DNA from: an uncultured Sunxiuqinia sp.
Lineage (GTDB): Bacteria > Bacteroidota > Bacteroidia > Bacteroidales > Prolixibacteraceae
Assembly: GCF_963678245.1 (NCBI RefSeq)
Contig: NZ_OY782767.1
Span: 248,001 to 312,000 of the forward strand
DNA length: 64,000 nucleotides
Direction of reading: 5' to 3'
Below the pieces are notes generated by a model. It searched no databases, was not told where the DNA came from, and was given only the letters and a program-made list of their open reading frames with translations. The number at the start of each line of letters is the position of its first letter. The stretch's first letter is position 1. Positions 710-17,271 of this stretch are shown piece after piece. The translations under genes were made by a program, and so were the position numbers.

Positions 710-723
710 TGAAAACGATTACA
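710..723. promoter_or_regulatory. Degenerate LacI/GalR-type operator next to the GH28 promoter
   Basis: TGAAAACGATTACA matches the perfect palindrome at 1144-1157 in 12 of 14 positions, with the same central CG. It directly abuts the -33 box of the GH28 promoter, where a bound regulator could block or help RNA polymerase. Confidence 0.5.
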
Positions 724-1143: not shown

Positions 1144-1157
1144 TGTAAACGTTTACA
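1144..1157. promoter_or_regulatory. Perfect LacI/GalR-type operator TGTAAACGTTTACA
   Basis: A perfect 14-bp palindrome with the central CG and the AAACGTTT core typical of LacI/GalR-family operators. It lies just downstream of the predicted -7 box, around the expected transcription start, the classic place for a repressor. No LacI-family gene is in the window, so the regulator must be encoded elsewhere, perhaps to the left. Confidence 0.65.
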
Positions 1158-1302
1158 TGTCATGATTGCCATCTTTTTTAACTCTTGATATTTCAGGGGG
1201 GGGGCGCTGTGGACGTTGCTTGCTTGTGATTTTTTTTAGGTTAACAATTGAGTAGAGGCGTTAATCGTAGGTGTGCTTATTCATCTTCGAACATAAATTA
1301 AA

Positions 1303-2448
1303 ATGAATAGAATTTTACTTCAACAACCGTCAAGCATTGTGTTTGGCGAAGATAGTCTTGTAACGTTTACGGAAGACTATTTAAATATGAAACATAAATC
1401 GTTATACCTGTTGACAATTAGTCCGGTATTGCCTTTGCTGGGCGATTTATTAAAGACTTTTGAAAAAGAAGGAATCCGGGTTGAAATTAACACCGGAATA
1501 GAAGGAGAACCTTCATTTCGTGATTTTGAAAAGGTTCTATTAGAAGCTCGAAACTTCGGTGCCGATAGCGTGGTTGGAATTGGAGGTGGAAGTGTTTTGG
1601 ATGTCGCAAAGTTTTTAGCAGCAATGCTGAAAAATGACCAAAATATATCAGACGTCATAGGAATAGGCTTGCTCAAGGAGCGAAGAACTTATTTGGCCTG
1701 TTTGCCAACCACCAGTGGCACAGGAAGCGAAGTTTCTCCAAATGCGATATTTCTTGATGAAAAAGATGGTGGCAAAAAGGGTGTAATCAGTCCGTTCCTT
1801 GTGCCCGATGGCGCATATATCGATCCAGCCTTAACAGTTGGAGTTCCGGCAGCAGTTACTGCAGCAACCGGTATCGATGCTTTGACACACTGTTTAGAGG
1901 CATATGTTAATCGGTTTGCTCATCCCGTGGTCGATCTGTGGGCTTTGGAAGGAATCCGGTTAATCAGTCAAAATTTAGAGAAATCCTGTATAGACGGTAA
2001 CGATATAGATGCTCGCACGGCAGTTGCTTTAGGAAGTGTATATGGCGGAATGTGCCTAGGGCCGGTTAATACGGCTGCAGTGCATGCGTTGGCGTATCCG
2101 TTGGGAAGTATTTACGAAGTTCCACACGGATTGTCGAATGCCCTGCTGTTGCCTTATGTTATGGAGTACAACATGCCTGAGGGTAACGAACGTTTGGCCG
2201 GAGTAGCAAAAGCGTTAGGCGTTACTCAATCCGGAGCTGATTCGGAGCTGGCCTTGGCCGGAGTATTAAAGATTAAAGAATTGATTGCTGCCTGCGGTTT
2301 GCCAAGTCGTTTGTCTGAAATAGACATCAAAAAGGAAGACATTGAAAAGATGGCAGATGCAGCTATTTTAGTTCAACGTCTTTTAAATAATAATGTAAAG
2401 GAATTAACAAAAGAGGACATTGTTTCGATCTACAAAAAAGCGTACTAG
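1303..2448 (+). CDS. Iron-containing alcohol dehydrogenase; predicted aldehyde reductase for a four-carbon uronate
   Basis: A 381-residue group III Fe-dependent alcohol dehydrogenase. The N-terminal dinucleotide-binding domain has GGGS at residues 94-97. The metal site is complete: Asp192 and His196 in GIDALTHCLEAY, His261, and His275 in EVPHGLSNA. The family interconverts alcohols and aldehydes with NAD(P)H. It is the first gene of a tight operon, 3 bp before the aldolase gene, followed by PdxA2, a DUF1537 kinase and a symporter. From that context I infer that it reduces the aldehyde released by the aldolase, most economically 2,3-dihydroxy-4-oxobutanoate to D-threonate. A lactaldehyde-reductase type role is an alternative. 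The family is certain; the substrate is inferred. Confidence 0.9.
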   Translation: MNRILLQQPSSIVFGEDSLVTFTEDYLNMKHKSLYLLTISPVLPLLGDLLKTFEKEGIRVEINTGIEGEPSFRDFEKVLLEARNFGADSVVGIGGGSVLDVAKFLAAMLKNDQNISDVIGIGLLKERRTYLACLPTTSGTGSEVSPNAIFLDEKDGGKKGVISPFLVPDGAYIDPALTVGVPAAVTAATGIDALTHCLEAYVNRFAHPVVDLWALEGIRLISQNLEKSCIDGNDIDARTAVALGSVYGGMCLGPVNTAAVHALAYPLGSIYEVPHGLSNALLLPYVMEYNMPEGNERLAGVAKALGVTQSGADSELALAGVLKIKELIAACGLPSRLSEIDIKKEDIEKMADAAILVQRLLNNNVKELTKEDIVSIYKKAY

Positions 2449-2451
2449 CGA

Positions 2452-3375
2452 ATGGAACCTGAGAAAAAATACCATGGAGTAATTGTGCCAATGATTACTC
2501 CACTTAAACAAGATAATACGATTGATGGAGAATCGGTTGGGCGCATTGTTGGGCTACTCAAGAATGCTGGTGTATATCCATTTATTTTAGGAACTACCGG
2601 AGAGGCTCCGTCTATTTCGGATGAACAAAAAGATCGAATGGTTGCTGAGACCGTAAAATACGTCGGTGCAGACTGCCTGGTGTATGCGGGTATTTCCTCC
2701 AACTGCTTTGACGAGTCAGTAACAATGGCTCATAAGTATCATGCGATGGGAGTTGATGTCGTTGTTGCAACACTTCCGGCCTATTATCCAATGAACAATC
2801 AACAAATGGTGAGTTATTTCACAGATTTAGCTGATCAGATGCCTTGTCCTTTGATTATCTATAACATGCCGGCAACCGTTAAGATTTCAATTCCCTTGGC
2901 GGTTCTTGATCAATTAAGCAAGCATCCTAATATTGTTGGAACAAAAGATTCGGAGCGAGATATGGAACGTTTAGATCGTTCTATTGAATTGTGGAAAGAT
3001 CGGCCTGATTTTGTCCACCTTTTAGGCTGGGCTGCTCAGTCGGCTTACGCTTTAAAAAAAGGATCCGATGGTATTGTACCAAGCACCGGCAATTTTGTGC
3101 CTGAGTTGTATGAGGATTTGTATCAATCGACTTTGGAAGGGAAGTTTGAACGAGCAGAGGATTTGCAGCAGCAAACGAACGATTTGTCATTGCTCTATCA
3201 AAAAGACCGAATTTTAAGCCAATCAATTCCAGCGTTAAAGTCAATTCTGGCTGTAATGGGGATTTGCGGAACTCAGGTTTTGCCACCAATGTATCGTTTA
3301 CACGATGAAGCAGTATTTCAGAATAATATAAAAGAAGAATTACAAAAATTAGAAATTATTCAGCTCAATGAGTAA
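2452..3375 (+). CDS. Dihydrodipicolinate synthase/N-acetylneuraminate lyase family aldolase; predicted 2-keto-3-deoxy acid aldolase
   Basis: A 307-residue class I aldolase of the DapA/NanA superfamily. Visible motifs are GTTGE (residues 47-51, pyruvate carboxylate binding), Tyr137 in IIYNMP and the Schiff-base Lys165 in IVGTKDSERD. Members form or cleave a pyruvate C-C bond. The neighbours are sugar-acid enzymes and not lysine genes, so I read it as a catabolic 2-keto-3-deoxy acid aldolase yielding pyruvate plus an aldehyde. With GH143/GH142-like genes downstream, DHA from RG-II is my preferred substrate. KDG, Kdo or keto-deoxy-rhamnonate cannot be excluded. Its 3' end overlaps pdxA2 by 8 bp, which suggests translational coupling. 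Confidence 0.9.
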   Translation: MEPEKKYHGVIVPMITPLKQDNTIDGESVGRIVGLLKNAGVYPFILGTTGEAPSISDEQKDRMVAETVKYVGADCLVYAGISSNCFDESVTMAHKYHAMGVDVVVATLPAYYPMNNQQMVSYFTDLADQMPCPLIIYNMPATVKISIPLAVLDQLSKHPNIVGTKDSERDMERLDRSIELWKDRPDFVHLLGWAAQSAYALKKGSDGIVPSTGNFVPELYEDLYQSTLEGKFERAEDLQQQTNDLSLLYQKDRILSQSIPALKSILAVMGICGTQVLPPMYRLHDEAVFQNNIKEELQKLEIIQLNE

Positions 3376-4405
3376 CTCAAATAATCTACCCATTTTGGCA
3401 ATTACAATGGGCGACCCGGCAGGAGTCGGTCCGGAGATTGCCGTTAAGACCTTTGCGAATCCGCAAACCTATGAAATTTGCAAGCCTTTGTTGGTTGGCA
3501 ATACCAGTATTTTGAAGAAGGCGATCAATTTGCTCCAATCCGAACTTCAGATTAATAGCGTTGACGATGTTGATCAAGCTCGCTTTCAGCATGGAACGAT
3601 CGATATTTTTAATTTGGACGTTGAAGATCCTGATGAGATAGAATTTGGAGTTGTTTCTGCTGTGGCGGGTGATCTGGCTTTTCGCACGGTTAAGCAGGCC
3701 ATTGATCTGGCACTTGCCACGAAGGTTGATGGCACGGTTACCGGACCAATCCACAAAGGAGCGATTCACGCGGCAGGGCATCACTTTTCGGGACACACTG
3801 AAATTTACGCACACTACACAAACACTTCGAAATATGCCATGTTGCTGGCCGAAGAAGACCTTCGGGTGATTCATGTAAGCACCCACGTTTCGTTGCGTCA
3901 GGCCTGCGATAATGTTAAACGAGACCGCGTTGTTGAGGTGATTCACCTGCTAAATGACAGCCTGAAAAAGCTCGGAATTGAAAATCCGAAGATTGGAGTA
4001 GCAGGATTAAATCCTCATTCGAGCGACGACGGACTATTTGGATACGAAGAAAAGGAAGAGATTAAACCAGCCTTGAAAGAAGTTCAAGCCGAAGGAATTG
4101 ATGCCGAAGGACCTGTGCCGCCGGATACTCTTTTTGCTTTGGCTACGGGAGGAAAATTCGATGGCTGTGTGGCTATGTATCACGATCAGGGACACATTCC
4201 TTTTAAAGTTGTCGGCTTCAATTGGGACAAGGAAAAGAAGGTTATGAAAAGTGTGAAAGGAGTGAATATTACTTTGGGACTTCCGATCATCCGTACATCG
4301 GTAGATCATGGAACTGCGTTTGAAATCGCCGGAAAAGGAGTCGCCAGTCCGGATGCACTTTTATTAGCCATACAATATGCCACAAGACTACATCAGTCGA
4401 ATTAA
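3368..4405 (+). CDS. pdxA2: PdxA2-type 4-phospho-D-threonate 3-dehydrogenase
   Basis: A 345-residue PdxA-family NAD-dependent dehydrogenase/decarboxylase. Family motifs run in order: ITMGDPAGVGPEI at the N-terminus, GPIHKGAIHAAG with GHTE, AGLNPHSSDDGLFG, MYHDQGHIPFKV and RTSVDHGTAFEIAG, with the metal-binding His residues present. Biosynthetic PdxA acts on 4-phospho-hydroxythreonine. Paralogues next to DUF1537 kinases (PdxA2) oxidatively decarboxylate 4-phospho-D-threonate to dihydroxyacetone phosphate and CO2. Here the DUF1537 gene follows after 11 bp, so I assign the catabolic role. It would regenerate the NADH spent by the alcohol dehydrogenase. A role in vitamin B6 synthesis is less likely in this operon. 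Confidence 0.88.
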   Translation: MSNSNNLPILAITMGDPAGVGPEIAVKTFANPQTYEICKPLLVGNTSILKKAINLLQSELQINSVDDVDQARFQHGTIDIFNLDVEDPDEIEFGVVSAVAGDLAFRTVKQAIDLALATKVDGTVTGPIHKGAIHAAGHHFSGHTEIYAHYTNTSKYAMLLAEEDLRVIHVSTHVSLRQACDNVKRDRVVEVIHLLNDSLKKLGIENPKIGVAGLNPHSSDDGLFGYEEKEEIKPALKEVQAEGIDAEGPVPPDTLFALATGGKFDGCVAMYHDQGHIPFKVVGFNWDKEKKVMKSVKGVNITLGLPIIRTSVDHGTAFEIAGKGVASPDALLLAIQYATRLHQSN

Positions 4406-4416
4406 TAAATATAGAG

Positions 4417-5580
4417 ATGATAGCTGTTATAGCAGATGATTTTACAGGAGCCGCAGAGATTGGGGGAATTGGGTTAAGACACGGATTGAGGGTAATGATT
4501 GAAACGAGTGTGGAGAAGGTTGACGATATTGATTTATTAGTTATCGCTACAAACACCAGATCATTAAATGAGGAAGAAGCATCCACAGCGATTGATAGAA
4601 TTGTAAAGAAACTGTTGATGCTTGAACCGACTTTCATTTTTAAAAAATTGGATTCTGTACTTCGGGGGAATGTTAATGCAGAACTACATGCTCAAATGAA
4701 AGCTTCTGGCAAGAATCTTGCGGTTGTTGTTGCAGGAAACCCTTATTTCAAACGAATTATTAAAAACGGAATTTACTATATTGAAGATGTTCCTTTGGCC
4801 GAAACCTCGTTCGGAAATGATCCGGAGTATTCAATCAATTCATCATCAGTTGTTGACTTGTTGAGCAGCAGTTGTTTAGTTGCGAAGTCGGTAAAACCAA
4901 CGGATGAATTACCGAAAAGCGGCTTGATAATTGGCGACATAACGAATGATGTTGAAATGAAGAAATGGAGTCATCGTCTTGACAATAATATGGTGGTCGC
5001 AGGAGGAGCAGGCTTTTTTGATTCGCTCTTGTGTGGTATTTTTGGGGATGAAGAAAACAACTACACGGGAAGGGACTATACGTTTGGGAAGCGCTCACTT
5101 TTCGTGTTCGGAAGTGCTTACCCAAAACCACCGGATATGGATGGGCTTACGCTAAATAATAATATCTCGGTTTTTAACATGCCTGATGAAATCTTCAATA
5201 ATGCCAATTACGATTCCATGTGTATGCAGACTTGGATTGAAAACGTTGTTGACGCGTTGAAAACAAATAAAAATGTTTTTGTATCGATAAAGCATAAATT
5301 TTGTGATGAAGAAGGATTGTCAGTTCGACTTAGCAGAAGCATTGGCGAATTGGTGGCTGGCGTTATCGAATCGATTGATCTTGATGATCTTTTTATTGAA
5401 GGTGGAGCAACAGCTTCTTCTATTTTCAATTGTTTGTACATTAAAAGGTTGGTTCCTTTTGGGGAGTTGGAACCTGGAATTATCCAAATGAATCCTGTTA
5501 GATATCCAAATCTAAAAGTAACCACTAAGCCGGGAAGTTATAAATGGCCAAAAAATAAAATTCACTTCATAAAAAACTAA
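4417..5580 (+). CDS. Four-carbon acid sugar kinase (DUF1537 family), predicted D-threonate 4-kinase
   Basis: A 387-residue DUF1537-family kinase. The N-terminal sugar-binding domain opens with IADDFTGAAEIGG and has KKLDSVLRGNV near residue 80. The C-terminal nucleotide-binding domain has FIEGGATASSIF, where GGDTA is usual, and ends in a TTKPGSYKWP version of the family's TKsGgfG motif. The family phosphorylates D-threonate, L-threonate or D-erythronate at O4. Pairing with PdxA2 is the signature of the D-threonate branch (DtnK). It is slightly shorter than the usual 410-430 residues, and GGDTA is GGATA, so nucleotide-site details may differ. The gene is co-transcribed with its neighbours by spacing. 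Confidence 0.85.
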   Translation: MIAVIADDFTGAAEIGGIGLRHGLRVMIETSVEKVDDIDLLVIATNTRSLNEEEASTAIDRIVKKLLMLEPTFIFKKLDSVLRGNVNAELHAQMKASGKNLAVVVAGNPYFKRIIKNGIYYIEDVPLAETSFGNDPEYSINSSSVVDLLSSSCLVAKSVKPTDELPKSGLIIGDITNDVEMKKWSHRLDNNMVVAGGAGFFDSLLCGIFGDEENNYTGRDYTFGKRSLFVFGSAYPKPPDMDGLTLNNNISVFNMPDEIFNNANYDSMCMQTWIENVVDALKTNKNVFVSIKHKFCDEEGLSVRLSRSIGELVAGVIESIDLDDLFIEGGATASSIFNCLYIKRLVPFGELEPGIIQMNPVRYPNLKVTTKPGSYKWPKNKIHFIKN

Positions 5581-5590
5581 CAACTAATCA

Positions 5591-7162
5591 ATGCAACCTA
5601 CGACTTCTATTCACCTAATCGATTACATCATTATCGTACTAACTCTTGTTGTTTCCCTTGGAGTTGGAATTCGTTTTGCGAGACAGCAAAAAAGCACTGG
5701 CAAATATTTTACGGGGGGAGGAACTCTGCCTTCATGGGCCATTGGGATGTCTATTCTCGCCACACTAATCAGTAGCATTACATTTCTAGCCTATCCAGGT
5801 GAAGGATACGGTTCAAACTGGATCAGACTGGTGCAGGGATTAATGGTGCCCATTGTATTAGTTTTCGCCATTGGCTTTATTGTGCCTTTATTCCGACATG
5901 TAATACGCTTGAGTGCCTATGAGTATTTCGAACGACGCTTTGGCTTTTTTGCGCGGCTTTACAGCTCTCTGGGGTTTATCTTGACACACTTTGCAAAAAT
6001 GGGAACTGTTTTTTATATCATTTCACTTGCATTAGGAAAAATGATTGGGATGGATACGGTTACGATTATTTGGATAATCGGAATTGCAGTGATTATATTG
6101 ACCATGCTTGGCGGAATTGAAGCAGTTATCTGGTTGGATGTGATCCAGGGATTTATGCTAATTTTTGGAGGAATTGTGACGCTGATTATTTTGCTGTTCA
6201 GTACCGACGGAGGGCCGTCTGAAATTTGGTCGGTAGCGATGGAAAACGGAAGAATTGGTTTTGGCCCGTTTGACTGGGATTTTGTCAACCTTACATTTTG
6301 GGTAATGGCACTAAATGGTATTTTTTACGCCATTCAGAAATATGGAACTGATCAAACGATCGTACAACGGTATTTAACTGCAAAGTCAGACAAGGAAGCG
6401 ATCAAGGCGTCATTAATTGGTGTTCTGCTCAGTGTGCCGGTTTGGGCGTTATTCATGTTTATCGGAACGGCTCTGTTTTCTTATTATCAAATATCGCAAG
6501 ATGTTTTGCCGGAGGGAATTAAAAATGATGCGGTCTTTCCAATTTTCATTGTATCTAAGTTACCGGTTGGTGTAGTTGGTTTAATTATATCGGCATTAAT
6601 TGCAGCGGCAGTTTCCAGTTTAGACTCAGATTTAAATTGCTTATCTGCAATTGTTTTAGAGGATTACTACCTTCGGTTTCGTCCAAAGAGTTCTGAAAAA
6701 GAACAGGTCTTGGTGAGTAAAATCTTTATTGTCCTTGCAGGTCTTGGTGCGATTGGAGTAGCCTTGTTTTACGTTCATGCGGGCGGCAAAGGAGTGTTGG
6801 GTATAATTTTCACTTTATATGCGATATTCTCAGGAGGAATTGCCGGAATGTTTCTACTTGGAATTTTTTCAAAAATACCCAACAAGCAAGGGCTTTACTT
6901 TGGAATTGGAGCCAGCGTATTATTTACGGCCTACGCTTTGTTAACATCTACACCAATCGGGGCTGCTAGTGGGAAGGAGTCTTTGTTGATTGACTTGGGT
7001 GCTTTCAATTTCACCCAACACAAATACATGATCGGGGTCTATAGTCATGTGGTATTGTTTGTGGTTGCTTTTATTGCAAGTTTCTTCTTTAAATCGAAAG
7101 AAATTGATGACCGCTTAACATATAAAGGGTGGTTGAAGTACAAACGAACAAATGCGGTTTAA
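5591..7162 (+). CDS. Sodium:solute symporter (SSS family), predicted acid-sugar uptake
   Basis: A 523-residue multi-spanning membrane protein with about 13 hydrophobic segments. It has the SSS N-terminal pattern: first helix, then the STGKYFTGGGTLPSWAIG loop and the SILATLISSITFLAYPGEGY segment. A conserved serine-rich helix, AAAVSSLDSDLN, lies near residue 340. SSS carriers couple substrate entry to Na+ and often import sugar acids. It starts 10 bp after the kinase gene and closes the catabolic operon, so it probably moves the acid sugar, here proposed to be DHA, across the inner membrane. The substrate is not visible from sequence. Confidence 0.88.
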   Translation: MQPTTSIHLIDYIIIVLTLVVSLGVGIRFARQQKSTGKYFTGGGTLPSWAIGMSILATLISSITFLAYPGEGYGSNWIRLVQGLMVPIVLVFAIGFIVPLFRHVIRLSAYEYFERRFGFFARLYSSLGFILTHFAKMGTVFYIISLALGKMIGMDTVTIIWIIGIAVIILTMLGGIEAVIWLDVIQGFMLIFGGIVTLIILLFSTDGGPSEIWSVAMENGRIGFGPFDWDFVNLTFWVMALNGIFYAIQKYGTDQTIVQRYLTAKSDKEAIKASLIGVLLSVPVWALFMFIGTALFSYYQISQDVLPEGIKNDAVFPIFIVSKLPVGVVGLIISALIAAAVSSLDSDLNCLSAIVLEDYYLRFRPKSSEKEQVLVSKIFIVLAGLGAIGVALFYVHAGGKGVLGIIFTLYAIFSGGIAGMFLLGIFSKIPNKQGLYFGIGASVLFTAYALLTSTPIGAASGKESLLIDLGAFNFTQHKYMIGVYSHVVLFVVAFIASFFFKSKEIDDRLTYKGWLKYKRTNAV

Positions 7163-7241: not shown

Positions 7242-10200
7242 ATGAAAATGTATATTAAATCAGAAAAGGCAATTTCATATAGTGTCATAATATTATTGGT
7301 CTTGAGTAGTATGCCGTTTTATGGATTCGCTCAAGCTCCAGATTTGAAGCCTGTATCGGTTTCTAAAGATGGTCGTTTGTTATACGGAAAAGACGAAGAC
7401 GGCAATCGGGTTCCCGATTTTAGCTATGCTGGATATAAAGCCTCTGAATCAGAAATCCCTTTCGTCGAACCGAAAGTCGTTGTTGCTCCGGTTGAAGGTG
7501 ACGCAACACATACTATTCAAAAAGCATTGAATTATGTCGCCTCTTTACCTTTAGATGAGAATGGCTTTCGAGGAGCAGTTTTGCTACAGAAAGGTACGTT
7601 TAAAGTCAATGGACGGCTGGTGATTAATGGCTCAGGTGTTGTGCTACGTGGAAGTGGTTTTGGCGACAACGGAACTACATTAATAGCTGCGGGAAAAGAC
7701 CGGCAGACCTTTATTCGGGTTCTGGGGAAAAATGATCATCTTTTTGCCGATACAACGAGTATTTCTAATTCACACGTACCCGTAAATGCGATGAGTTTTG
7801 TGGTTGAAAATACTGATTATTACAAAGTTGGCGACCCAGTTATTGTTCATCGTCTATCGACTCAAAAGTGGATTGAACGACTAAGTATGGTTGAATTTGG
7901 TGGAGATGAAACGGGATGGATTGGCTGGAAACCCGGAAATCGCGATATCTATTGGGATCGAACGATTTCCGCAATCGAAGGAGATACCATTTTCATTAAT
8001 GCTCCGCTAACAACTGCATTAGATACGACTTGGGGAACTAGTGAAATCATAAAATATAACTGGAAAGGACGAATCAACAACATTGGGATTGAAAATCTAA
8101 ATTTGGAGTCGGCTTTTGATGAAACGAATTTGAAAGATGAAAACCATTGTTGGTCAGCTATAACTATTGAGAATGCTGAAAATGTATGGGTACGTCAGCT
8201 AACTTTTAAGCATTTTGCCGGGTCGGCAGTTGCTGTTTATGAAACCGCTAAAAAAGTAACGGTTCAGGATTGTGTTTCAACAGATCCGGTTTCTGAAATC
8301 GGCGGACAGCGTCGATATACCTTTTTCACAATGGGGCAACAAACTTTGTTTCAACGCTTGTATGCCGAATATGGTTATCATGATTTTGCCCTTGGTTTTT
8401 GTGCTGCCGGGCCAAACGTTTTTGTGCAATGTGAATCGCATTTGCCCTACGAATACAGTGGGACAATCGACAGTTGGGCATCCGGTGTTTTATTCGATAT
8501 TGTGAATGTTGATGGACATGTCATTTCCTTTAAAAATCAAATGCTTAACCACCAGGGAGCTGGCTGGACTGCTGCCAATTCCATGCTTTGGCAATGCTCT
8601 GCTGCGCTGATCGAAAACTATGTGCCGCCTACAGCTATGAACTGGAGTTACGGTGCCTGGAGTCAATTCTCCGGCAATGGATATTGGGCTGAAGAAAATA
8701 ACCATGTCATACCCCGAAGTTTGTTTTATGCACAGCTAGCTGATCGACTGGATAAGAAAACCGAGGAGTTTGCTGATCAGGTAATGCCCTTCGACGATAA
8801 CTCTACAAGTAGCCCTACTGCCGAACAAGCTCAGGAATTAACGGAACAAGCTTACTCTCCGGCGCTACGTTTGGAAGATTGGATTATGCAAGCGGACGAC
8901 CGCGACCCAATTTCACTGGAAAGAGCAACTGCAATAAGAGCAAGCGAATTAAAAGACAAGAAGAAAATTACAACGGAAGTTCTTCATCCAATTACTGTTG
9001 AAAACGGGAAATTGGTTAAAGATGATTTGGTTTTAACCGGCATGCGCTTTACTGTACCTTGGTGGAGGGGAGTGGCTCGTCCTTATGCTACGAAGAAGGC
9101 AACTCCTGCTGTTACTCGTTATGTCCCGGGCCGAAATGGTCACGGATATACCGACAACCTGAATGAGGTGATTGACTGGATGGATGAATACAACATGGCT
9201 GGTCTCGAACACAACTATGGTTTGTGGTATGATCGTCGTCGAGACGATCATGAGCGAGTTCGGAGGATGGATGGTCAGGTTTGGGCTCCATTTTACCAGC
9301 AGCCTTTTGCCCGAAGCGGACAAGGAACCGCCTGGGATGGATTGAGTAAATACGACTTAACCAAATATGATGATTGGTACTGGAATCGACTAGCTGATTT
9401 TGCCGATTTGGCTGACAAAAACGGCAAGCTGTTGGTGCATCACAACTATTTTCAGCATAACATTTTAGAAGCCGGAGCTCACTGGGCTGACAGTCCGTGG
9501 CGACCTGCGAACAATATTAATAACACCGGTTTTCCAGAGCCGGTGCCTTATGCGGGAGATAAGCGGATTTATATGGCCAAACAGTTTTATGATGAAAGCC
9601 ATCCGGTACGCCGAAAATTGCACCAGGCCTATATTCGTCAGTGCTTGAACAATTTTGCGGATAATTCAAACGTCCTTCAGCTGATTAGTGCCGAATATAC
9701 AGGCCCACTTCATTTTACAGAGTTCTGGTTAGAAACGATTGGCAATTGGCAAAAGGAAACCGGGAAAGATAAATTGATAGGATTGAGTACCACCAAGGAT
9801 GTGCAAGATTCTATTTTGGCGAATAAGAAATATGCAGACCTGATTGATGTAATTGACATTCGCTATTGGAGCTATCGCGAAGACGGAAAGTTGTATGCGC
9901 CACTGAGCGCTCAGCAGTTGGCTCCGCGTCAGCATGCACGACAGGTAAAACCCGGCAAACGCTCATTCAGCTCTGTTTATCGTTCGGTGTTTGAATATAC
10001 GTTTCGATACCCTGAAAAGGCTGTTGTTTTTTCTGAAGGCCGATATAATGTATATGGTTGGGCTGCTTTTATGGCCGGAGGTTCTCTTGTGGTTCTCCCC
10101 GAAAATTTGCCAACCGAGTTTTTAACCGATGCCATTTCGATGCGGCCCGTTAAGCCGGATGGCAACCCTGAAGAAGAGTGCAGCTTGGAAAGTGACAATG

Positions 10201-10400
10201 CACTTATCATTTATTCGCAGAACAAATCAGAACTTTCGATTGACCTGACTGGAAGGAAAGGACGATATGTCGTTAAATTTATTCAACCTCCAGATGGGAC
10301 TTTACTCGATAAAGAGACTATAATAAAGGGAGGCGAAAAACAAGCGATTAAACTGCCTCAAAAATCATCACTCATAACTTGGATTAAAAAACAACAATAA
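7242..10400 (+). CDS. Secreted two-domain protein: pectate-lyase-like beta-helix plus C-terminal barrel-like domain (DUF6298-like)
   Basis: A 1052-residue protein with a signal peptide (hydrophobic residues about 12-30, ending GFAQA). Residues about 80-560 look like a pectate-lyase-3/beta-helix domain: THTIQKALNYVASLP, then VLLQKGTFKVNG, then GVVLRGSGFGDNGTT, followed by helix rungs. Residues about 600-1000 form a second domain that looks like an (alpha/beta)8 hydrolase. It has two candidate acidic sites, ISAEYTG and FSEGRYN, and ends in a small beta-sandwich-like tail (SSLITWIKK). The domain name is tentative. It heads the row of secreted enzymes and lies 12 bp before a GH140-like gene. The likely substrate is a pectin side chain; lyase or hydrolase chemistry cannot be decided here. 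Confidence 0.75.
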   Translation: MKMYIKSEKAISYSVIILLVLSSMPFYGFAQAPDLKPVSVSKDGRLLYGKDEDGNRVPDFSYAGYKASESEIPFVEPKVVVAPVEGDATHTIQKALNYVASLPLDENGFRGAVLLQKGTFKVNGRLVINGSGVVLRGSGFGDNGTTLIAAGKDRQTFIRVLGKNDHLFADTTSISNSHVPVNAMSFVVENTDYYKVGDPVIVHRLSTQKWIERLSMVEFGGDETGWIGWKPGNRDIYWDRTISAIEGDTIFINAPLTTALDTTWGTSEIIKYNWKGRINNIGIENLNLESAFDETNLKDENHCWSAITIENAENVWVRQLTFKHFAGSAVAVYETAKKVTVQDCVSTDPVSEIGGQRRYTFFTMGQQTLFQRLYAEYGYHDFALGFCAAGPNVFVQCESHLPYEYSGTIDSWASGVLFDIVNVDGHVISFKNQMLNHQGAGWTAANSMLWQCSAALIENYVPPTAMNWSYGAWSQFSGNGYWAEENNHVIPRSLFYAQLADRLDKKTEEFADQVMPFDDNSTSSPTAEQAQELTEQAYSPALRLEDWIMQADDRDPISLERATAIRASELKDKKKITTEVLHPITVENGKLVKDDLVLTGMRFTVPWWRGVARPYATKKATPAVTRYVPGRNGHGYTDNLNEVIDWMDEYNMAGLEHNYGLWYDRRRDDHERVRRMDGQVWAPFYQQPFARSGQGTAWDGLSKYDLTKYDDWYWNRLADFADLADKNGKLLVHHNYFQHNILEAGAHWADSPWRPANNINNTGFPEPVPYAGDKRIYMAKQFYDESHPVRRKLHQAYIRQCLNNFADNSNVLQLISAEYTGPLHFTEFWLETIGNWQKETGKDKLIGLSTTKDVQDSILANKKYADLIDVIDIRYWSYREDGKLYAPLSAQQLAPRQHARQVKPGKRSFSSVYRSVFEYTFRYPEKAVVFSEGRYNVYGWAAFMAGGSLVVLPENLPTEFLTDAISMRPVKPDGNPEEECSLESDNALIIYSQNKSELSIDLTGRKGRYVVKFIQPPDGTLLDKETIIKGGEKQAIKLPQKSSLITWIKKQQ

Positions 10401-10412
10401 ACCTTATAAAAT

Positions 10413-11816
10413 ATGTTACGAAATTTATTGATCATTACGATAGCTGTATTTTTTGCTGTTGGTTGTACTTCAACCTCAAAGGAAGAAAAGAAAGAAGATA
10501 CGGGTTTACCGCTTTTAAAAGTGTCTGAAAACGGACATTATTTTGTTGAAGAAAATGGCGATCCGTTTTTTTGGTTAGGCGATACTGGTTGGCTGCTATT
10601 TTCAAAGCTTAATCAGGAAGATGCGGTGAAATATTTGGAAATCCGCAAAGAGCAAGGATACAATGTTATTCAAGTAATGGTATTGCACAGCGTAGGAGCT
10701 GTCAATATTTATGGCGATTCAGCCTTAGTAAACGCGAATGTGGCAAAACCGGTGGTTACCGAAGGAAACGCATTTGACGACTCGCTACAATATGATTATT
10801 GGGATCATATGGATTATGTGATTGATCAGGCTGCCGAAAAAGGATTGTACATGGCCTTGGTTCCGGTATGGGGAGGTAACGTAAAAAGTGGTTATGTATC
10901 AAGAGAAGAAGCTACTGTTTATGGCAAGTGGATAGCCGATCGCTACAAAGACCGCAAAAATATAATTTGGCTGAATGGTGGTGACACCATGGGGAACGAT
11001 TCAACGGCTACCTGGAATAATCTGGGGAATGCGATCAATGATACTGACCCGAATCACCTGATTACATTTCACCCACGTGGACGGATGCAGTCTTCTGACT
11101 GGTTCGCTAACGAAGCTTGGTTGGATTTTAACATGATCCAGTCCGGACACCGAAATTACGAGCAGGACGATACAGAGCGCTCGTACGGTGAAGATAATTG
11201 GCGTTACATGCAAACCGATTGGGATATGACTCCGGCTAAACCAACTATTGATGGCGAGCCTTCTTACGAAGGAATTCCTCAGGGCTTACACGATACACTG
11301 CAACCATTTTGGAATGATGATGATGTTCGTCGTTATGCATATTGGTCTGTATTTTCCGGAGCATTCGGCTATACTTATGGGCACAGTGCTGTGATGCAGT
11401 TTTATAAGCCGACTGATAATGAACCGGCATACGGAGCCAGAGAATATTGGACAGAAGCAATTTACGCTCCGGGAGCCAAACAGATGGTTCACCTGAAAGA
11501 TTTGATGCTATCGCGTTCTTATTTGGATAGAGTGCCCGATCAAAGTTTGATTGCCGGTGAAAATGGTGAGCGGTATGATTACTTAATCGCTACTCGTGGT
11601 TCAAATTATGCCTTTATCTACACGTACACCGGAAGAAATATTCCTGTTGATATGGAGCAGTTTAAAGCTGACAAAGTAAAGGCAAACTGGTTTGATCCCC
11701 GAAATGGAGAAACTACGGCCATCGGTGAGTTTGAGACCCAAGGTGTTCAGGAATTTGATGCTCCGGGTGAAAAAGAGAATGGTAACGACTGGGTGTTGAT
11801 TCTTGATGAAGTATAG
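10413..11816 (+). CDS. GH140-like apiosidase (DUF4038 family) lipoprotein
   Basis: A 467-residue lipoprotein (lipobox AVGC, Cys18), so probably membrane-anchored. The DUF4038 signature starts at residue 36: KVSENGHYFVEENGDPFFWL, then GDTGW. The barrel carries two acidic residues in the places expected for GH140 catalysis: Asp191 in WLNGGDTMGND and Glu282 in TIDGEPSYEG. The last about 90 residues form the beta-sandwich tail common to the family. The founding GH140 enzyme (BT1012) is an endo-apiosidase that cuts apiose at the base of RG-II side chains A and B. GH140 membership rests on these motifs. The GH142/GH143 neighbours point to RG-II too. Confidence 0.8.
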   Translation: MLRNLLIITIAVFFAVGCTSTSKEEKKEDTGLPLLKVSENGHYFVEENGDPFFWLGDTGWLLFSKLNQEDAVKYLEIRKEQGYNVIQVMVLHSVGAVNIYGDSALVNANVAKPVVTEGNAFDDSLQYDYWDHMDYVIDQAAEKGLYMALVPVWGGNVKSGYVSREEATVYGKWIADRYKDRKNIIWLNGGDTMGNDSTATWNNLGNAINDTDPNHLITFHPRGRMQSSDWFANEAWLDFNMIQSGHRNYEQDDTERSYGEDNWRYMQTDWDMTPAKPTIDGEPSYEGIPQGLHDTLQPFWNDDDVRRYAYWSVFSGAFGYTYGHSAVMQFYKPTDNEPAYGAREYWTEAIYAPGAKQMVHLKDLMLSRSYLDRVPDQSLIAGENGERYDYLIATRGSNYAFIYTYTGRNIPVDMEQFKADKVKANWFDPRNGETTAIGEFETQGVQEFDAPGEKENGNDWVLILDEV

Positions 11817-11874: not shown

Positions 11875-13719
11875 ATGATAAAACTGAATAAAATATTACT
11901 CGTATCCGCCTTGTTATTAAGTGGAGTGGGAGTAGCTTCAGCTCAGGAAATCCCTCATTTTACAGGGAGCGAGCTCAACAATCCTGACTATCATCATGGG
12001 CAACTGAGCCCGGCAATGGGCGTACATAACATTCAGGTGATGCGCGCCAATCGCGAACTTCCCGAAACTGCTGATGATTTTGGATGGACATACAACCATG
12101 CGCCTATGTTGGCGTATTGGAACAATACGTTCTTTTTGGAATATTTAAGTGATCCGGTTGGAGAGCACGTTCCACCGGGACAAACCTTTTTGGTGACTTC
12201 AAATGATGGTTACGGATGGTCGAAGCCTGAGGTTGTTTTTCCTCCGTATTCCATTCCGGACGGAACGCAAAAGGAGGGAAGTGATCAAGTGGCAAAAGAC
12301 TTGCTGTCGGTAAATCATCAGCGAATGGGATTTTATGTTTCTTCTGATGATCGTTTATTTGCCATAGCCTACATTGCTATTTCTATTGATGCGCACGACA
12401 GCCCGAACGATGGAAAAGGAATTGGAAGAGTGGTACGCGAAATTCATAGAGATGGTTCCTTCGGCCCGATCTATTTCATTCGTTATAATGAAGGGTGGAG
12501 CAAAAAAAATACGGACTATCCCTTTTATATGAAGAGCAAGGATAGAGGGCTTGTTAAAGCCTGTGAGAAAATGCTATCCGATCCTCTTGTTCAACAGCAG
12601 TGGAACGAAGAAGCGGATCGGGATGATCCGTTAATTCCCATACAAAAACAGTATAAAGCTTTCTCGTACTATCACTTGCCAAATGGGAGCGTGATTGGCT
12701 TGTGGAAGCATGCCCTCGCCGCGGTGAGTGAAGATGAAGGGAAAACCTGGACAACGCCTACTCGTGCCCCTGGATTTGTAAACAGCAATGCTAAGATTTG
12801 GGGACAAAAAACGTCGGACGGACGTTATGCGACGGTTTATAACCCGTCCGATTTTCGCTGGCCTTTAGCTATTTCCGTGAGTGAGAATGGTCTCAATTAT
12901 GAAAATTTACTTTTGGTGAATGGTGAAATTACAACCATGCGTTATGGTGGTAACTATAAATCTTATGGTCCGCAATATGTTCGTGGTATTCAGGAAGGTA
13001 ATGGTACCCCTCCTGATGGAAACCTTTGGATAACTTACAGCATTAATAAGGAAGATATCTGGGTTTCAACAATTCCAGTGCCTGTTAAAGCGAAGGCCGA
13101 AACCCATGTTGATGAAGATTTTTCTGGGATGGATTCGGAATCAGCTTTAGATAAATGGAATCTTTTTAGTCCGGTTTGGGCGCGCGTTGGTATTGAGAAC
13201 GATGCTGATGGAACATCTTGTCTGACCTTAAAAGACAAAGATGAATTTGACTATGCCAAAGCCAAACGTTTGTTTCCGGCATCCGATTCGGTGAGCGTTG
13301 AATTTACAATTGAAGCAGAGCAAAATGACCATGGCCTGCTGCATGTTGAATTGCAAGATGAAGAAAACACCGGAACGTTGCGCCTTATTTTTGATAAGGA
13401 TGGGATACTGAAACACAAAGCAGGCTATCGTTTACGGAATATTATGGAGTACGAAGCCGGTGAAAAATACACCATTCGTATTGAAGCGACCACTTGGTCT
13501 CGTTTTTATGATGTGTATGTAAATGGTGAAAAGAAAACCACTGGCTTGAGTTTTGCACCGGTTCACGAAGTCCAAAGCATTCAGTTTCGTACTGGAGAGG
13601 TTCGCCGTTTTCCAACTGTCGATACGCCGACTGATCAAAATTTTGATGTTCCTCAAAGCAGAAAGCCTGTTGACGAAGCTGTGTTCCGCATTTATTCGTT
13701 GAAAACTGAAAAATTATAG
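11875..13719 (+). CDS. GH143-like secreted beta-propeller (predicted DHA hydrolase)
   Basis: A 614-residue protein with a signal peptide (ending VASAQ) and an N-terminal sialidase-like propeller over residues about 25-400, with TSNDGYGWSKP and SEDEGKTWTTP Asp-box-type repeats. A concanavalin/LamG-like beta-sandwich follows (about 410-610). The region around YHHGQLSPAMGVHNIQVMRA and GWTYNHAPMLAYWN resembles, as I recall it, the N-terminal GH143 half of BT1020, which releases DHA (3-deoxy-D-lyxo-2-heptulosaric acid) from RG-II chain D. The next gene, 4 bp downstream, matches the other half of BT1020. A generic exo-sialidase annotation would be misleading. The family call is from memory and not from an alignment. 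Confidence 0.65.
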   Translation: MIKLNKILLVSALLLSGVGVASAQEIPHFTGSELNNPDYHHGQLSPAMGVHNIQVMRANRELPETADDFGWTYNHAPMLAYWNNTFFLEYLSDPVGEHVPPGQTFLVTSNDGYGWSKPEVVFPPYSIPDGTQKEGSDQVAKDLLSVNHQRMGFYVSSDDRLFAIAYIAISIDAHDSPNDGKGIGRVVREIHRDGSFGPIYFIRYNEGWSKKNTDYPFYMKSKDRGLVKACEKMLSDPLVQQQWNEEADRDDPLIPIQKQYKAFSYYHLPNGSVIGLWKHALAAVSEDEGKTWTTPTRAPGFVNSNAKIWGQKTSDGRYATVYNPSDFRWPLAISVSENGLNYENLLLVNGEITTMRYGGNYKSYGPQYVRGIQEGNGTPPDGNLWITYSINKEDIWVSTIPVPVKAKAETHVDEDFSGMDSESALDKWNLFSPVWARVGIENDADGTSCLTLKDKDEFDYAKAKRLFPASDSVSVEFTIEAEQNDHGLLHVELQDEENTGTLRLIFDKDGILKHKAGYRLRNIMEYEAGEKYTIRIEATTWSRFYDVYVNGEKKTTGLSFAPVHEVQSIQFRTGEVRRFPTVDTPTDQNFDVPQSRKPVDEAVFRIYSLKTEKL

Positions 13720-13723
13720 TTGA

Positions 13724-15289
13724 ATGTACAAGTTAAAAAATACAATAAAATTAACACTCATTATTGCTTTCACCTGGATGAGTTTATTGCCTGCTACGGC
13801 AAGCCAAAAGGGAAAGAGCAATGAAAAACAGATCCTTCAAGCCAAGGATTTTAAGCACTATGTCGATTATTTTAATCGCATGGAAGATGAAAATATTACC
13901 GGCGCTATCCCGAATGCCGAATCATGGGAATGGATGAAAGCCAATATCCCGTTGTTCGAATGTCCGCAAGCCAATTTTGAGGAAATGTATTACTACCGTT
14001 GGTGGACTTTGCGCAAACACATCAAAGAGACTCCCAAAGGATATGTGATGACTGAGTTTCTGGTCCAACGTCCATATGCTGATAAATACAACATGATTAG
14101 TTGTGCCTTGGGGCATCACATATACGAATCCCGCTGGTTGCGCGATCGCGAATATGTGAACGACTATGTTCATGTTTGGTTTCGGGGTAATGAAGGTGGA
14201 AAAATGAATAAGCTTCTCAAGTTCAGTAGTTGGACGGCCAATGCACTTTACAACAAATACCTGGTTGATGGAAACAAAGAGTATTTGGTGGATATGTTAC
14301 CTGATTTACTTTCAGAATACGAAGCGTGGGAAATTGAAAAAAAAACACCTTCTGGCCTGTTTTGGCAATACGATGTTCGCGATGGCATGGAAGAGCAGAT
14401 TAGTGGTGGACGCCACGTGAAAAACAAGCGCCCAACGATTAACAGCTACATGTATGGAAATGCAAAAGCCATTGCTAAAATTGCAAGTTTGGCCGGAAAG
14501 AAGAAAGTTACTGAAAAATATGAAGCCAAAGCTGATACCTTACAAAAACTGGTGAATAATAGCCTTTGGAATGCTGAGGCGAATTTCTACGAAACGGTTA
14601 ACGAAAAAGGAGGTTTTGCGGAGGTGCGCGAAGAAATTGGATTCATTCCATGGTATTTCAACTTACCACAGGAAAAGCAGGAAAGTGCATGGGAACAGGT
14701 AAAAAGCACCCAAGGGTTTTTAGCTCCTTTTGGACTTACAACTGCTGAGCGCAGTCACCCAGAGTTTCGTTCTCACGGCTGTTGCAGCTGCGAGTGGGAT
14801 GGTGCCATTTGGCCATTTGCAACGTCACAAACCATGACTGCCATGGCTAACCTGATCAATAATTACGACCAGGATGTGGTGAACGATTCCATTTATTTTA
14901 GACTAATGGAGTTGTATGTTGAATCTCAATATTACCGCGGTCGCCCATATATTGGAGAGTACTTGGATGAAGTAACCGGCTATTGGCTTAAAGGAGATCA
15001 GGAGCGGAGCCGCTACTACAATCATTCAACTTTTAATGACTTAATTATTACCGGGCTGGTTGGTCTGCGTCCTCGTGATGATCAGAAAATTGAAGTGAAC
15101 CCCTTGATTCCGGAAGATAAATGGGATTGGTTTTCGCTGGATCAAGTTTCTTATCAAGGGAAAAGTGTCAGCATCATTTGGGATAAAACGGGCGAAAAAT
15201 ACAAGTTAGGGAAAGGCCTTATCGTTTTAGTCGATGGGAAAGAGGTTGGACGAAGTGAGCACCTGGAACACCTGATTTGTAAATACTAA
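13724..15289 (+). CDS. GH142-like (alpha/alpha)-barrel glycosidase (predicted beta-L-arabinofuranosidase)
   Basis: A 521-residue secreted protein (signal peptide ending PATAS). It has the MGH1/GH63-like (alpha/alpha)6 pattern: ESRWLRDREYVNDYV, then WQYDVRDGMEEQISGG near residue 218, then CCSCEWDGAIWPFATSQ and a C-terminal GLRPRDDQKIEVNPL segment. Acidic residues in RDGMEE and CEWDG are the obvious catalytic candidates. I read it as GH142, the beta-L-arabinofuranosidase half of BT1020 that removes terminal arabinose from RG-II chain D before DHA is released. Here it is a separate gene 4 bp after the GH143-like gene, which suggests that the two activities are made together. Other MGH1-type activities remain possible. 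Confidence 0.65.
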   Translation: MYKLKNTIKLTLIIAFTWMSLLPATASQKGKSNEKQILQAKDFKHYVDYFNRMEDENITGAIPNAESWEWMKANIPLFECPQANFEEMYYYRWWTLRKHIKETPKGYVMTEFLVQRPYADKYNMISCALGHHIYESRWLRDREYVNDYVHVWFRGNEGGKMNKLLKFSSWTANALYNKYLVDGNKEYLVDMLPDLLSEYEAWEIEKKTPSGLFWQYDVRDGMEEQISGGRHVKNKRPTINSYMYGNAKAIAKIASLAGKKKVTEKYEAKADTLQKLVNNSLWNAEANFYETVNEKGGFAEVREEIGFIPWYFNLPQEKQESAWEQVKSTQGFLAPFGLTTAERSHPEFRSHGCCSCEWDGAIWPFATSQTMTAMANLINNYDQDVVNDSIYFRLMELYVESQYYRGRPYIGEYLDEVTGYWLKGDQERSRYYNHSTFNDLIITGLVGLRPRDDQKIEVNPLIPEDKWDWFSLDQVSYQGKSVSIIWDKTGEKYKLGKGLIVLVDGKEVGRSEHLEHLICKY

Positions 15290-15315: not shown

Positions 15316-15993
15316 ATGAAAAAATCATTACTAATAGCTTCTGTTTTTGTAGCAGTGTCTTTCTTGTACACTCCGGCTACCGAGGCAAATTGTTCCGTGC
15401 ACCCACCAGTCGTTAGCAATCAATTATCCGATCAGGAACAGAAAGCAACAAAGTGGGTGAAATCGCTAGAGTTGACCGATAAAGCGAAAGAAGAGCGTGT
15501 AATAGACATTGTAGCTGAACATCTGACTGCTGTGAAAACATGGCACAATGAGCATCCCGGATCAGCGGTTCCTGCCGGAGTAAATCCAAGGACAGGGGAA
15601 AAACTGACCGAGCTGGATCGACAAATGATTGCCGATTCAGCCATGCCCGAAAGTGTGCATGAGAATTTAATGAACGGACTTCGTAAAGACTTGACAGAAG
15701 AGCAGGTTGAGGCTATTTTGGATAAATACACCGTAGGTAAGGTTGACTTCACTATGCGTGGTTACCACGCCATTGTGCCAGACCTAACCGATGAAGAAGC
15801 TGCTGTAATTTTAGGACATTTAAAGGAGGCTCGAGAAATGGCAGTCGATTATAAACAGATGAAGGAGATCTCTGCTATTTTCGAAATCTACAAAACGAAA
15901 TGCGAGAAATACTTAAATAGTAACGGACGAGATTGGCACCAGCTTTATAAGGCCTTTGTCAAAAAAATAAAAGAAGAAAAAAACAAAGAGTAA
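15316..15993 (+). CDS. DUF3826 domain protein, secreted, function unknown
   Basis: A 225-residue protein with a signal peptide (MKKSLLIASVFVAVSFLY) and a mostly helical, charged body. The pattern KATKWVKSLELTDKAKEERV and the later YKQMKEISAIFEIYKTKCEK fit DUF3826, a family I know from polysaccharide-utilisation loci without an assigned activity. It lies 26 bp after the GH142-like gene, in the same run. It has no recognisable catalytic motif, so a binding or chaperone role for secreted enzymes is possible but not shown. Confidence 0.7.
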   Translation: MKKSLLIASVFVAVSFLYTPATEANCSVHPPVVSNQLSDQEQKATKWVKSLELTDKAKEERVIDIVAEHLTAVKTWHNEHPGSAVPAGVNPRTGEKLTELDRQMIADSAMPESVHENLMNGLRKDLTEEQVEAILDKYTVGKVDFTMRGYHAIVPDLTDEEAAVILGHLKEAREMAVDYKQMKEISAIFEIYKTKCEKYLNSNGRDWHQLYKAFVKKIKEEKNKE

Positions 15994-16160: not shown

Positions 16161-17264
16161 ATGAAATTATATTTCAGAAATAGTCTAATTGTGATGTTTG
16201 TTCTTGCTTGTCTTTTTTCAGTTGAGTCAAATGCACAGGAAAATCGATGGAAAAAAGGAATAGTAAAAGAACAGTTTATATACGAAGAAGATGTTTATCC
16301 TTCTTGTCATGCCGGAACGTTGGCTGAGACACCTGATGGTATTGTTGCTGCTTGGTTTGGTGGCACACGCGAACGAAACCCGGATGTGACCATCCGTTTC
16401 AGTCGTTTGGTCGATGGTGAGTGGACAAAGTCGGTTGAAGTGGCCAACGGGGTGCAAAACGATACGCTGCGTTATCCAACTTGGAATCCGGTTTTGTATC
16501 AAATTCCTGATGGCGATTTGCTGTTGTTTTATAAAGTTGGACCAAGTCCTTCCGGTTGGTGGGGCATGCTAAAGCGTTCTACCGACAATGGAATAACGTG
16601 GAGCGAAGCCGAAAAACTACCAGATGGCTTTATTGGCCCGGTAAAAAATAAACCTTTGTTATTAGGTAACGGCGATTTGATCTGCGGGTCAAGTACTGAA
16701 GGAGGACAGGGGTGGCAGGTTCATTTCGAATTGACCCCTGATTTTGGTAAAACCTGGCGTAAGGTTGGCCCAATTAATAGCCCAAGCATCTATCAAATTA
16801 TTCAGCCCAGCGTTTTGAAACACCAAGACGGGGGTTTGTCTATTTTATGCCGAAGTAAAAACAGCGTATTGGTTGATTCGTATTCTTCGGACAATGGCGA
16901 AACATGGTCGTTGCCACAAGCTTCAGGACTTCCAAATAACAATTCAGGAACCGATGCCGTTTCGTTGAAAGATGGCCGTCAACTGGCTGTTTACAACCAC
17001 GTAAAAACACCCATTGGCGCTAAAAAAGGTTATCGCACACCACTTAATGTAGCGGTTTCCGATGATGGCAAACACTGGTCTGCAGCGCTTGTATTGGAAG
17101 ATTCCGAAATCAGTCAGTATTCTTATCCGGCAGTAATTCAGTCGGCTGATGGCATGGTGCATTTCATTTACACCTGGCGTCGTGAACGAATGAAATACGT
17201 AAAAGTTGATCCGACAAAATTGGAATTGACTGAAATTATTGATGAAAAGTGGCCCGAAAAATAA
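16161..17264 (+). CDS. Secreted sialidase-like BNR propeller (367 residues), pectin-associated
   Basis: It starts with a signal peptide (ending ESNAQ). The body is a BNR_2-type propeller: YPSCHAGTLAETPDGIVAAW, then FGGTRERNPDVTIRFSR, then Asp-box repeats STDNGITWSE, SSDNGETWSL and SDDGKHWSA. Proteins with this layout are usually auto-annotated as exo-alpha-sialidases, but nothing here points to sialic acid. The family also contains rhamnosyl-glucuronate lyases and ulosonic-acid hydrolases. In an RG-II context, Kdo of side chain C or a Rha-GlcA linkage are candidate targets. A 167-bp gap precedes it, so it may have its own promoter. The activity is unresolved. Confidence 0.7.
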   Translation: MKLYFRNSLIVMFVLACLFSVESNAQENRWKKGIVKEQFIYEEDVYPSCHAGTLAETPDGIVAAWFGGTRERNPDVTIRFSRLVDGEWTKSVEVANGVQNDTLRYPTWNPVLYQIPDGDLLLFYKVGPSPSGWWGMLKRSTDNGITWSEAEKLPDGFIGPVKNKPLLLGNGDLICGSSTEGGQGWQVHFELTPDFGKTWRKVGPINSPSIYQIIQPSVLKHQDGGLSILCRSKNSVLVDSYSSDNGETWSLPQASGLPNNNSGTDAVSLKDGRQLAVYNHVKTPIGAKKGYRTPLNVAVSDDGKHWSAALVLEDSEISQYSYPAVIQSADGMVHFIYTWRRERMKYVKVDPTKLELTEIIDEKWPEK

Positions 17265-17271
17265 CAAGACG

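Follow-up and report, generated by a model that had tools for sequence, protein, structure and literature searches.

An operon predicted to degrade the rhamnogalacturonan-II sugar acid DHA in an uncultured Sunxiuqinia

The operon and its proteins

The window described here is a stretch of 64,000 nucleotides from an uncultured Sunxiuqinia species of the Prolixibacteraceae (assembly GCF_963678245.1, contig NZ_OY782767.1, positions 248,001 to 312,000). At window positions 1303-7162 it contains five genes, for a Fe-alcohol dehydrogenase (Fe-ADH), a pyruvate aldolase, a second PdxA protein, a DUF1537 family kinase and a sodium:solute symporter (SSS). This operon very probably breaks down 3-deoxy-D-lyxo-2-heptulosaric acid (DHA), a rare acid sugar of seven carbons in the plant pectin rhamnogalacturonan-II (RG-II), to ordinary metabolites. 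The five open reading frames are intact, lie on one strand and are separated by gaps of 3, -8, 11 and 10 nucleotides, which makes this a tight operon. The Pfam domains of all five proteins score above the gathering cut-off (Table 1), in agreement with the positions and families given in a preliminary description of this DNA made without database searches.

Table 1. Features of the operon, of the gene cluster that follows it and of the operator sites. Positions are those of the window unless a contig is named.
Feature	Position	Strand	Evidence and predicted role
LacI-type operator, perfect palindrome TGTAAACGTTTACA	1144..1157		about 145 nt before the operon
Fe-ADH	1303..2448	+	PF00465/PF25137 (Fe-ADH/ADH_Fe_C); putative; would reduce the C4 aldehyde to D-threonate
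DapA/NanA-family class I pyruvate aldolase	2452..3375	+	PF00701 (DHDPS); putative DHA aldolase
Second PdxA	3368..4405	+	PF04166; putative 4-phospho-D-threonate dehydrogenase (to DHAP and CO2)
DUF1537 family kinase	4417..5580	+	PF07005 and PF17042 (SBD_N and NBD_C); putative D-threonate 4-kinase
SSS	5591..7162	+	PF00474 (SSF); putative DHA importer
DUF6298 protein, RG-II cluster	7242..10400	+	PF19815, 781 bits
GH140-like apiosidase	10413..11816	+	PF13204 catalytic domain, 380 bits (within GH140)
GH143 (predicted DHA hydrolase)	11875..13719	+	PF24067, 398 bits (cut-off 27); 5mqr residues 24-610, 788 bits
GH142 (chain-D beta-L-arabinofuranosidase)	13724..15289	+	PF22422; 5mqr residues 612-1104, 757 bits
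DUF3826 protein	15316..15993	+	PF12875
BNR_2 sialidase-fold protein	16161..17264	+	PF13088, 304 bits; weak sialidase matches; N-terminus signal-peptide-like by eye
BT1017-type RG-II pectin methylesterase	17239..18666	+	424 bits to 6goc
Operator sites with at most one mismatch	1144-1157; G000:C1:234906, 239969; C8:40767, 40980, 43291

The kinase belongs to the DUF1537 family, with scores of 118.7 bits for SBD_N and 33.7 bits for NBD_C. Its predicted structure has the two-domain DUF1537 fold, matching 1yzy, 3dqq and 5dmh in Foldseek with E < 1e-20. It is nearer to the NCBIfam model for D-threonate kinase (127 bits) than to that for 3-oxo-tetronate kinase (54 bits), both scores being below the cut-off.

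The second protein of the proposed D-threonate branch is a member of the PdxA family (352 bits on TIGR00557, cut-off 290). A separate canonical PdxA is encoded on another contig of the same genome (G000:C7); it scores best with the general PdxA model and reaches 232 bits on the D-threonate 4-phosphate dehydrogenase model NF002891. The operon copy is closer to PdxA2-type models and structures, and this score pattern marks it as an extra copy, of the PdxA2 type named in the preliminary description. A role as the vitamin B6 enzyme was rejected, since the canonical copy stands at G000:C7.

The aldolase falls within the DHDPS/NAL superfamily. In a clade of 58 sequences, each at least 40% identical to that of the window, K165, Y137, G47, T48, G50 and E51 are invariant and T49 is kept in 57; we take K165 to be the Schiff-base lysine, Y137 the catalytic tyrosine and residues 47-51 the GTTGE motif. 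Threonine 142 is found in 55 of the 58, and in a distant group this position is arginine in 9 of 13. The structure predicted for it (pLDDT 91) most closely resembles those of N-acetylneuraminate lyases and 4xky, a Bacteroides thetaiotaomicron structure labelled dihydrodipicolinate synthase. A housekeeping DapA was rejected, the protein scoring 144 bits on TIGR00674 (cut-off 206) and two further family members being present elsewhere in the genome. E168 (57 of 58), R173 (56 of 58, otherwise lysine) and S211 (58 of 58) set the clade apart from the distant group and from a second aldolase of the genome, ALD2, and are shared by five nearer relatives; that they bind the substrate is only suggested by this pattern.

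The dehydrogenase carries both Fe-ADH domains and reaches no NCBIfam equivalog model. Among its relatives of solved structure are lactaldehyde reductase and 1,3-propanediol dehydrogenase.

Predicted route from DHA to pyruvate and DHAP

RG-II is dismantled by gut bacteria. Aldolases that release pyruvate from 3-deoxy-2-keto acids act in the catabolism of sialic acid (NanA) and of galactarate and glucarate (ketodeoxyglucarate aldolase); in the galactarate/glucarate route the aldehyde acid from the aldolase is then reduced and phosphorylated. Zhang et al. reportedly found in 2016 that the DUF1537 kinase DtnK and PdxA2 turn D-threonate into dihydroxyacetone phosphate (DHAP) and CO2.

In the route that we propose, GH142 would take off the terminal L-arabinose and GH143 would free DHA outside the cytoplasm, from where the symporter would bring it into the cell. 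The NanA-like aldolase would cut DHA at its C3-C4 bond, giving pyruvate and 2,3-dihydroxy-4-oxobutanoate, and the Fe-ADH would reduce the latter with NADH to D-threonate. The kinase would then form 4-phospho-D-threonate, which PdxA2 would oxidise and decarboxylate to DHAP and CO2, regaining the NADH. On this scheme, from which the carbon and redox balance would follow, the seven carbons would end as C3, C3 and C1 at the cost of one ATP.

The stereochemistry fits the proposed route. In Fischer terms the D-lyxo centres at C4-C6 are L, L and R. When the chain is cut between C3 and C4 and the four-carbon product is numbered afresh from its carboxylate, C2 is L and C3 is R, which is D-threonate once the aldehyde is reduced; the argument to this effect in the preliminary description is correct. 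We regard the DHA route as a well-supported prediction, which draws on gene content, synteny, co-occurrence, fold, family and a shared operator motif, and we infer from these each reaction in this organism, the direction and cofactor of the dehydrogenase, the cell compartments and the transported substrate.

The proposed route shares its pyruvate-releasing step on a 3-deoxy-2-keto acid with the NanA and galactarate/glucarate routes. It differs from the galactarate/glucarate route in a substrate one carbon longer, in a tetronate rather than a glycerate intermediate and in the oxidative decarboxylation by PdxA2. The D-threonate pathway has the same pair of DUF1537 kinase and PdxA2 as the operon, but here a C7 sugar acid would be turned into D-threonate intracellularly, through the aldolase and Fe-ADH, and the kinase and PdxA are below the NCBIfam cut-offs. 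The DUF1537 kinase DtnK is named in passages of PMC10971088 and PMC13185595. The component families are known, and their combination and substrate appear new to us. As had been stated before, no DHA catabolic route was found described in the open-access literature searched, among the matches listed and judging by titles and the openings of abstracts.

The enzymes that would supply the sugar are encoded close behind the operon. The GH143 protein contains the full-length N-terminal propeller of B. thetaiotaomicron BT_1020 and is predicted from this to release DHA; the GH142 protein contains the C-terminal catalytic domain of BT_1020. The two adjacent genes align to successive halves of the single chain 5mqr, so that BT_1020 is split into two genes here, which sharpens the earlier labels "GH143-like" and "GH142-like". 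In the RG-II system of B. thetaiotaomicron both domains (GH143-GH142) are in one protein, whereas here there are two genes and a catabolic operon for the released sugar lies within the same cluster. Both genes had correctly been placed downstream of the operon; they do not follow the symporter directly, as the DUF6298 and GH140-family genes intervene. A passage of PMC6811678 has the GH143 and GH142 domains both acting on RG-II chain D, the DHA chain, and BT_1020/5mqr is named as a GH142 arabinofuranosidase in part of PMC7263609.

The wider surroundings are of the same kind. The 40 kb upstream of the window contain a LacI regulator gene besides GH28, GH88, GH95, GH2, SusC/D, GH78-type and GH106 genes, which makes this an RG-II-type locus. 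The DUF3826 protein and the BT1017-type esterase are separate genes here and one protein in B. thetaiotaomicron; 6goc is identified as BT1017 in an excerpt of PMC7939467. A hybrid histidine kinase with PocR sensory and PAS domains is encoded downstream of the cluster, at window 20949-23930.

Occurrence of the module and of GH143

The five genes form a module that stays together across genomes. Of 295 genomes from the order, 10 have the kinase (genomes and loci are given G and L numbers below), and in nine of these the other module genes adjoin it, in one of the nine on a 4.1 kb contig that ends before the dehydrogenase. The tenth, G176, has a kinase that is 25% identical and PdxA only. Two gene orders are found in this sample, FeADH-ALD-PDXA-KIN-SSS and ALD-SSS-FeADH-PDXA-KIN, where ALD is the aldolase and KIN the kinase.

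A scan of named genomes, in which the best 80 of at least 531 kinase relatives were analysed by the gene content of the fetched stretch, gave 41 five-gene loci, 9 four-gene loci, 5 partial loci with fewer genes, 2 variants and 23 others. This sample and that of the order probably overlap in part (L077 resembles G108). In 39 of the 41 five-gene loci the genes share a strand and span no more than 8.5 kb; the gene copies of one five-gene locus, L094, are fragmented. Four gene orders occur among them, in 20, 19, 1 and 1 loci. The arrangement thus goes beyond chance, and that the genes are reshuffled in order yet kept together argues for a single pathway.

The GH143 propeller (PF24067) is present in 15 of the 295 order genomes, including all 10 with the kinase. 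All nine genomes with the module are GH143-positive (hypergeometric 1e-13; by genus 8 of 8, 1e-10), in statistics that ignore relatedness. Among the 80 named loci, counted genome-wide, GH143 is present in 43 of 50 named genomes in one set and 10 of 30 in the other. By class of locus, the genome is GH143-positive for 38 of the 41 loci with five genes, 8 of the 9 with four, all 5 partial loci, neither of the 2 variants and 2 of the 23 others. The genomes without GH143 among the five-gene loci (L065, L071 and L084) and the four-gene loci (L070) are labelled as metagenome-assembled and may be incomplete. The co-occurrence proposed earlier for testing is clear from module to GH143, and a large number of GH143 genomes are without the module. 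The association holds mainly at the level of whole genomes. In a sample of 395 genomes of the phylum, kinase profile matches were found in 6 genomes and GH143 in 21, with 3 in common; these three, the window genome, G407 and G405, have both module and GH143. One further genome, G577, has a kinase match without the module.

Several observations weigh against the proposed route. The 127 bits of the kinase compare with a cut-off of 450 in the DtnK model NF047819, with a best stretch of residues 2-153 only, and the operon PdxA scores 340 bits on NF002891, for which the cut-off is 583. Judged by best BLAST label, only 9 of the 50 five- or four-gene loci have GH143 inside the fetched stretch. The kinase is absent from 18 of 21 GH143 genomes in the phylum sample and from 5 of the 15 in that of the order, so that carriers of GH143 often manage without this route. 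Two of the five module genomes in the phylum sample, G448 with five genes and G550 with four and no SSS match, carry the module without GH143 or GH142, and the genomes of the verrucomicrobial variants L072 and L081 encode GH142 and no GH143. PF24067 also catches propellers of putative activity that are only 33-44% identical to that of the window; the copies of G405, G336 and G350 are of that kind.

The kinase-less GH143 genomes would have to take another DHA route or leave DHA unused; no module was seen in the 20 kb GH143 stretches read from them. Seven loci of one genus (f124 g190; L173-L176, L178, L185 and L186) are RG-II clusters with GH143 in genomes without the module kinase. GH143-like genes lie in or near the module in L090 (G336, 33% identical to the window's) and L169 (G405, 38%), genomes with no GH142 match, and in L104 (G350, also no GH142 match) a GH143 gene 44% identical to the window's follows a kinase fragment at the contig end, where the sequence of any further module genes breaks off. 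GH143 without GH142 and, in the variants, GH142 without GH143 are both found, and as both are chain-D enzymes both patterns point to the DHA chain.

Other substrates and a second locus

It is possible that the module degrades a broader class of compounds, such as seven-carbon 3-deoxy-2-ulosarates or tetronate precursors from algal or bacterial polymers as well as RG-II, with the DHA of RG-II as one substrate among others. We consider this unlikely. The GH143-less genomes are in its favour, the module lying beside sulfatase and BNR_2 genes in L167 and GH127/GH43-type genes in L168; the neighbours in G448 and G550 are a TonB receptor, a sulfatase, an FGE/BNR_2 protein and a GntP permease, or GH127-/GH43-type genes. 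Analogous sets of kinase, Fe-ADH, aldolase and PdxA in Firmicutes without GH143 also fit. A passage of PMC10762512 gives deoxy-lyxo-2-heptulosaric acid as characteristic of prasinophyte scales and the Tetraselmis theca, and on that account such a sugar has a source other than RG-II; that G448 and G550 feed on it is only a guess. Against this, the operon of the window has RG-II chain-D enzymes close behind it.

The Firmicute look-alikes combine, within one stretch each, a kinase, a distant Fe-ADH (30-37% identical), an ALD2-like aldolase and a PdxA in L111 ([Clostridium] symbiosum), L121 (C. ragsdalei), L124, L113, L115, L128 and L123. These are mostly Firmicute genomes without GH143, and the genes are contiguous in L111 and L121 and more scattered in L128. 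They are perhaps a second assembly of the same set of reactions.

A different RG-II sugar acid, 3-deoxy-D-manno-octulosonic acid (KDO) of chain C or aceric acid, is an improbable substrate of the operon, in which case GH143 would be nearby only through the clustering of RG-II genes. Several module loci of the Bacteroidota do lie in or near RG-II clusters, and KDO, another 3-deoxy-2-ulosonate, could be cleaved by a NanA-like aldolase. Cleavage of KDO would give D-arabinose, however, with no need for an acid-sugar kinase or PdxA2. GH143-like genes also accompany the module in L090 and L169, and the kinase fragment in L104, with no match to GH140, GH142 or DUF6298. In addition, the window genome has a separate pair of aldolase and symporter, ALD2 and SSS2, with GH78 and a sialidase-like gene, and in G019, a genome with GH143 and no kinase, such a pair stands beside RG-II genes.

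The ALD2/SSS2 pair of the window genome is in locus L187 (G000:C8:28000-47999). Between SusC/D genes, at C8:32473-40026, are genes for a GH78-type rhamnosidase, an AraC regulator, a BNR_2 protein, ALD2 and SSS2. ALD2 is 62% identical to the copy of G282, which scores 418 bits to 4xky. Pairs in G019, G022, G068 and G176 are 46-61% (ALD2) and 61-68% (SSS2) identical to the G282 pair, and those of G282 and G019 adjoin RG-II genes. KDO is placed in chain C and DHA in chain D in a passage of PMC12168206, and chain C ends in rhamnose according to part of PMC12282258. With its GH78, ALD2 and SSS2 genes, the C8 locus looks like the KDO counterpart, which leaves the kinase/PdxA2 module for DHA; by gene content it is a candidate chain C (rhamnose-KDO) locus and ALD2 a candidate KDO aldolase.

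It is highly improbable that the operon joins two unrelated units, one an aldolase and dehydrogenase acting on a deoxy sugar acid such as 2-keto-3-deoxy-L-rhamnonate (cleaved to pyruvate and lactaldehyde, which is then reduced), the other a kinase and PdxA2 for external D-threonate. In favour of two units, the best Fe-ADH scores are to ErcA and lactaldehyde reductase models, far below cut-off, and kinase/PdxA pairs occur without the rest of the module in G176 and G577. Against them, the five genes are found together in four different orders in many genera, judging by the titles of the records, and distantly related aldolase and Fe-ADH genes accompany the kinase/PdxA pair in Firmicutes.

The DHA operon and the C8 locus share an operator motif. 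In the genome of 4.87 Mb the exact palindrome TGTAAACGTTTACA occurs only before the operon and at C8:40980. All six sites with at most one mismatch are in C1:228-268 kb, the RG-II region, or C8:28-52 kb, as are 11 of 27 with at most two; one two-mismatch copy is at window 710-723, before a divergent GH28-type gene. These regions were chosen after the sites had been seen and a reversed control pattern has more sites overall (57 against 27), so that only the clustering is informative. At G000:C1:240115-241110, some 7 kb before the window begins, is a LacI gene preceded by a one-mismatch site; its product is predicted to bind the operator. The operator is no general feature of the module, occurring in 3 of 55 other module upstream regions at two or fewer mismatches (control 0). 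A run of nine G at window 1196-1204, between the operator and the operon, may be a slippage site or a sequencing artefact. Bacteroidetes -33/-7 promoters (1 match in the window, not before the operon, 3.3 expected) and sigma-70 promoters (44 found, 42.9 expected) were both rejected.

BNR_2 proteins recur beside the module and its look-alikes in several phyla, in the window and in L113, L115, L121, L124, L128, L167, L169 and L090. A BNR_2 BLAST match is found in 15 of the 50 five- or four-gene loci. The arginines R231, R292 and R341 are each kept in at least 97% of 29 aligned sequences, and these proteins are candidate ulosonate or ulosarate hydrolases.

We tentatively suggest, as a picture that may well not hold in all its parts, that bacteria have paired RG-II ulosonate modules, which in this genome would be under one LacI-type operator. 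That for chain D would comprise GH143/GH142, symporter, DHA aldolase, reductase, kinase and PdxA2, and that for chain C would comprise GH78, a sialidase-like BNR_2 hydrolase, symporter and a 4xky-type KDO aldolase. The DHA chemistry would have been reassembled in Firmicutes and would also serve Bacteroidota that have sulfatases and lack GH143; the BNR_2 proteins would form a class of DHA hydrolases so far undescribed, acting on DHA polymers of algal or other origin.

An operon with a named substrate for each step offers an answer that simple enzyme assays can test directly, for a sugar whose metabolic fate was not found in the papers searched. If the DHA route is correct, it would assign a function to clades of DapA-family, Fe-ADH and DUF1537 proteins beyond the reach of any NCBIfam equivalog model, as well as to a PdxA copy that would be named the vitamin B6 enzyme by the general model. 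It also suggests a way in which DHA of other origin, for instance from algal scales, may be recycled.

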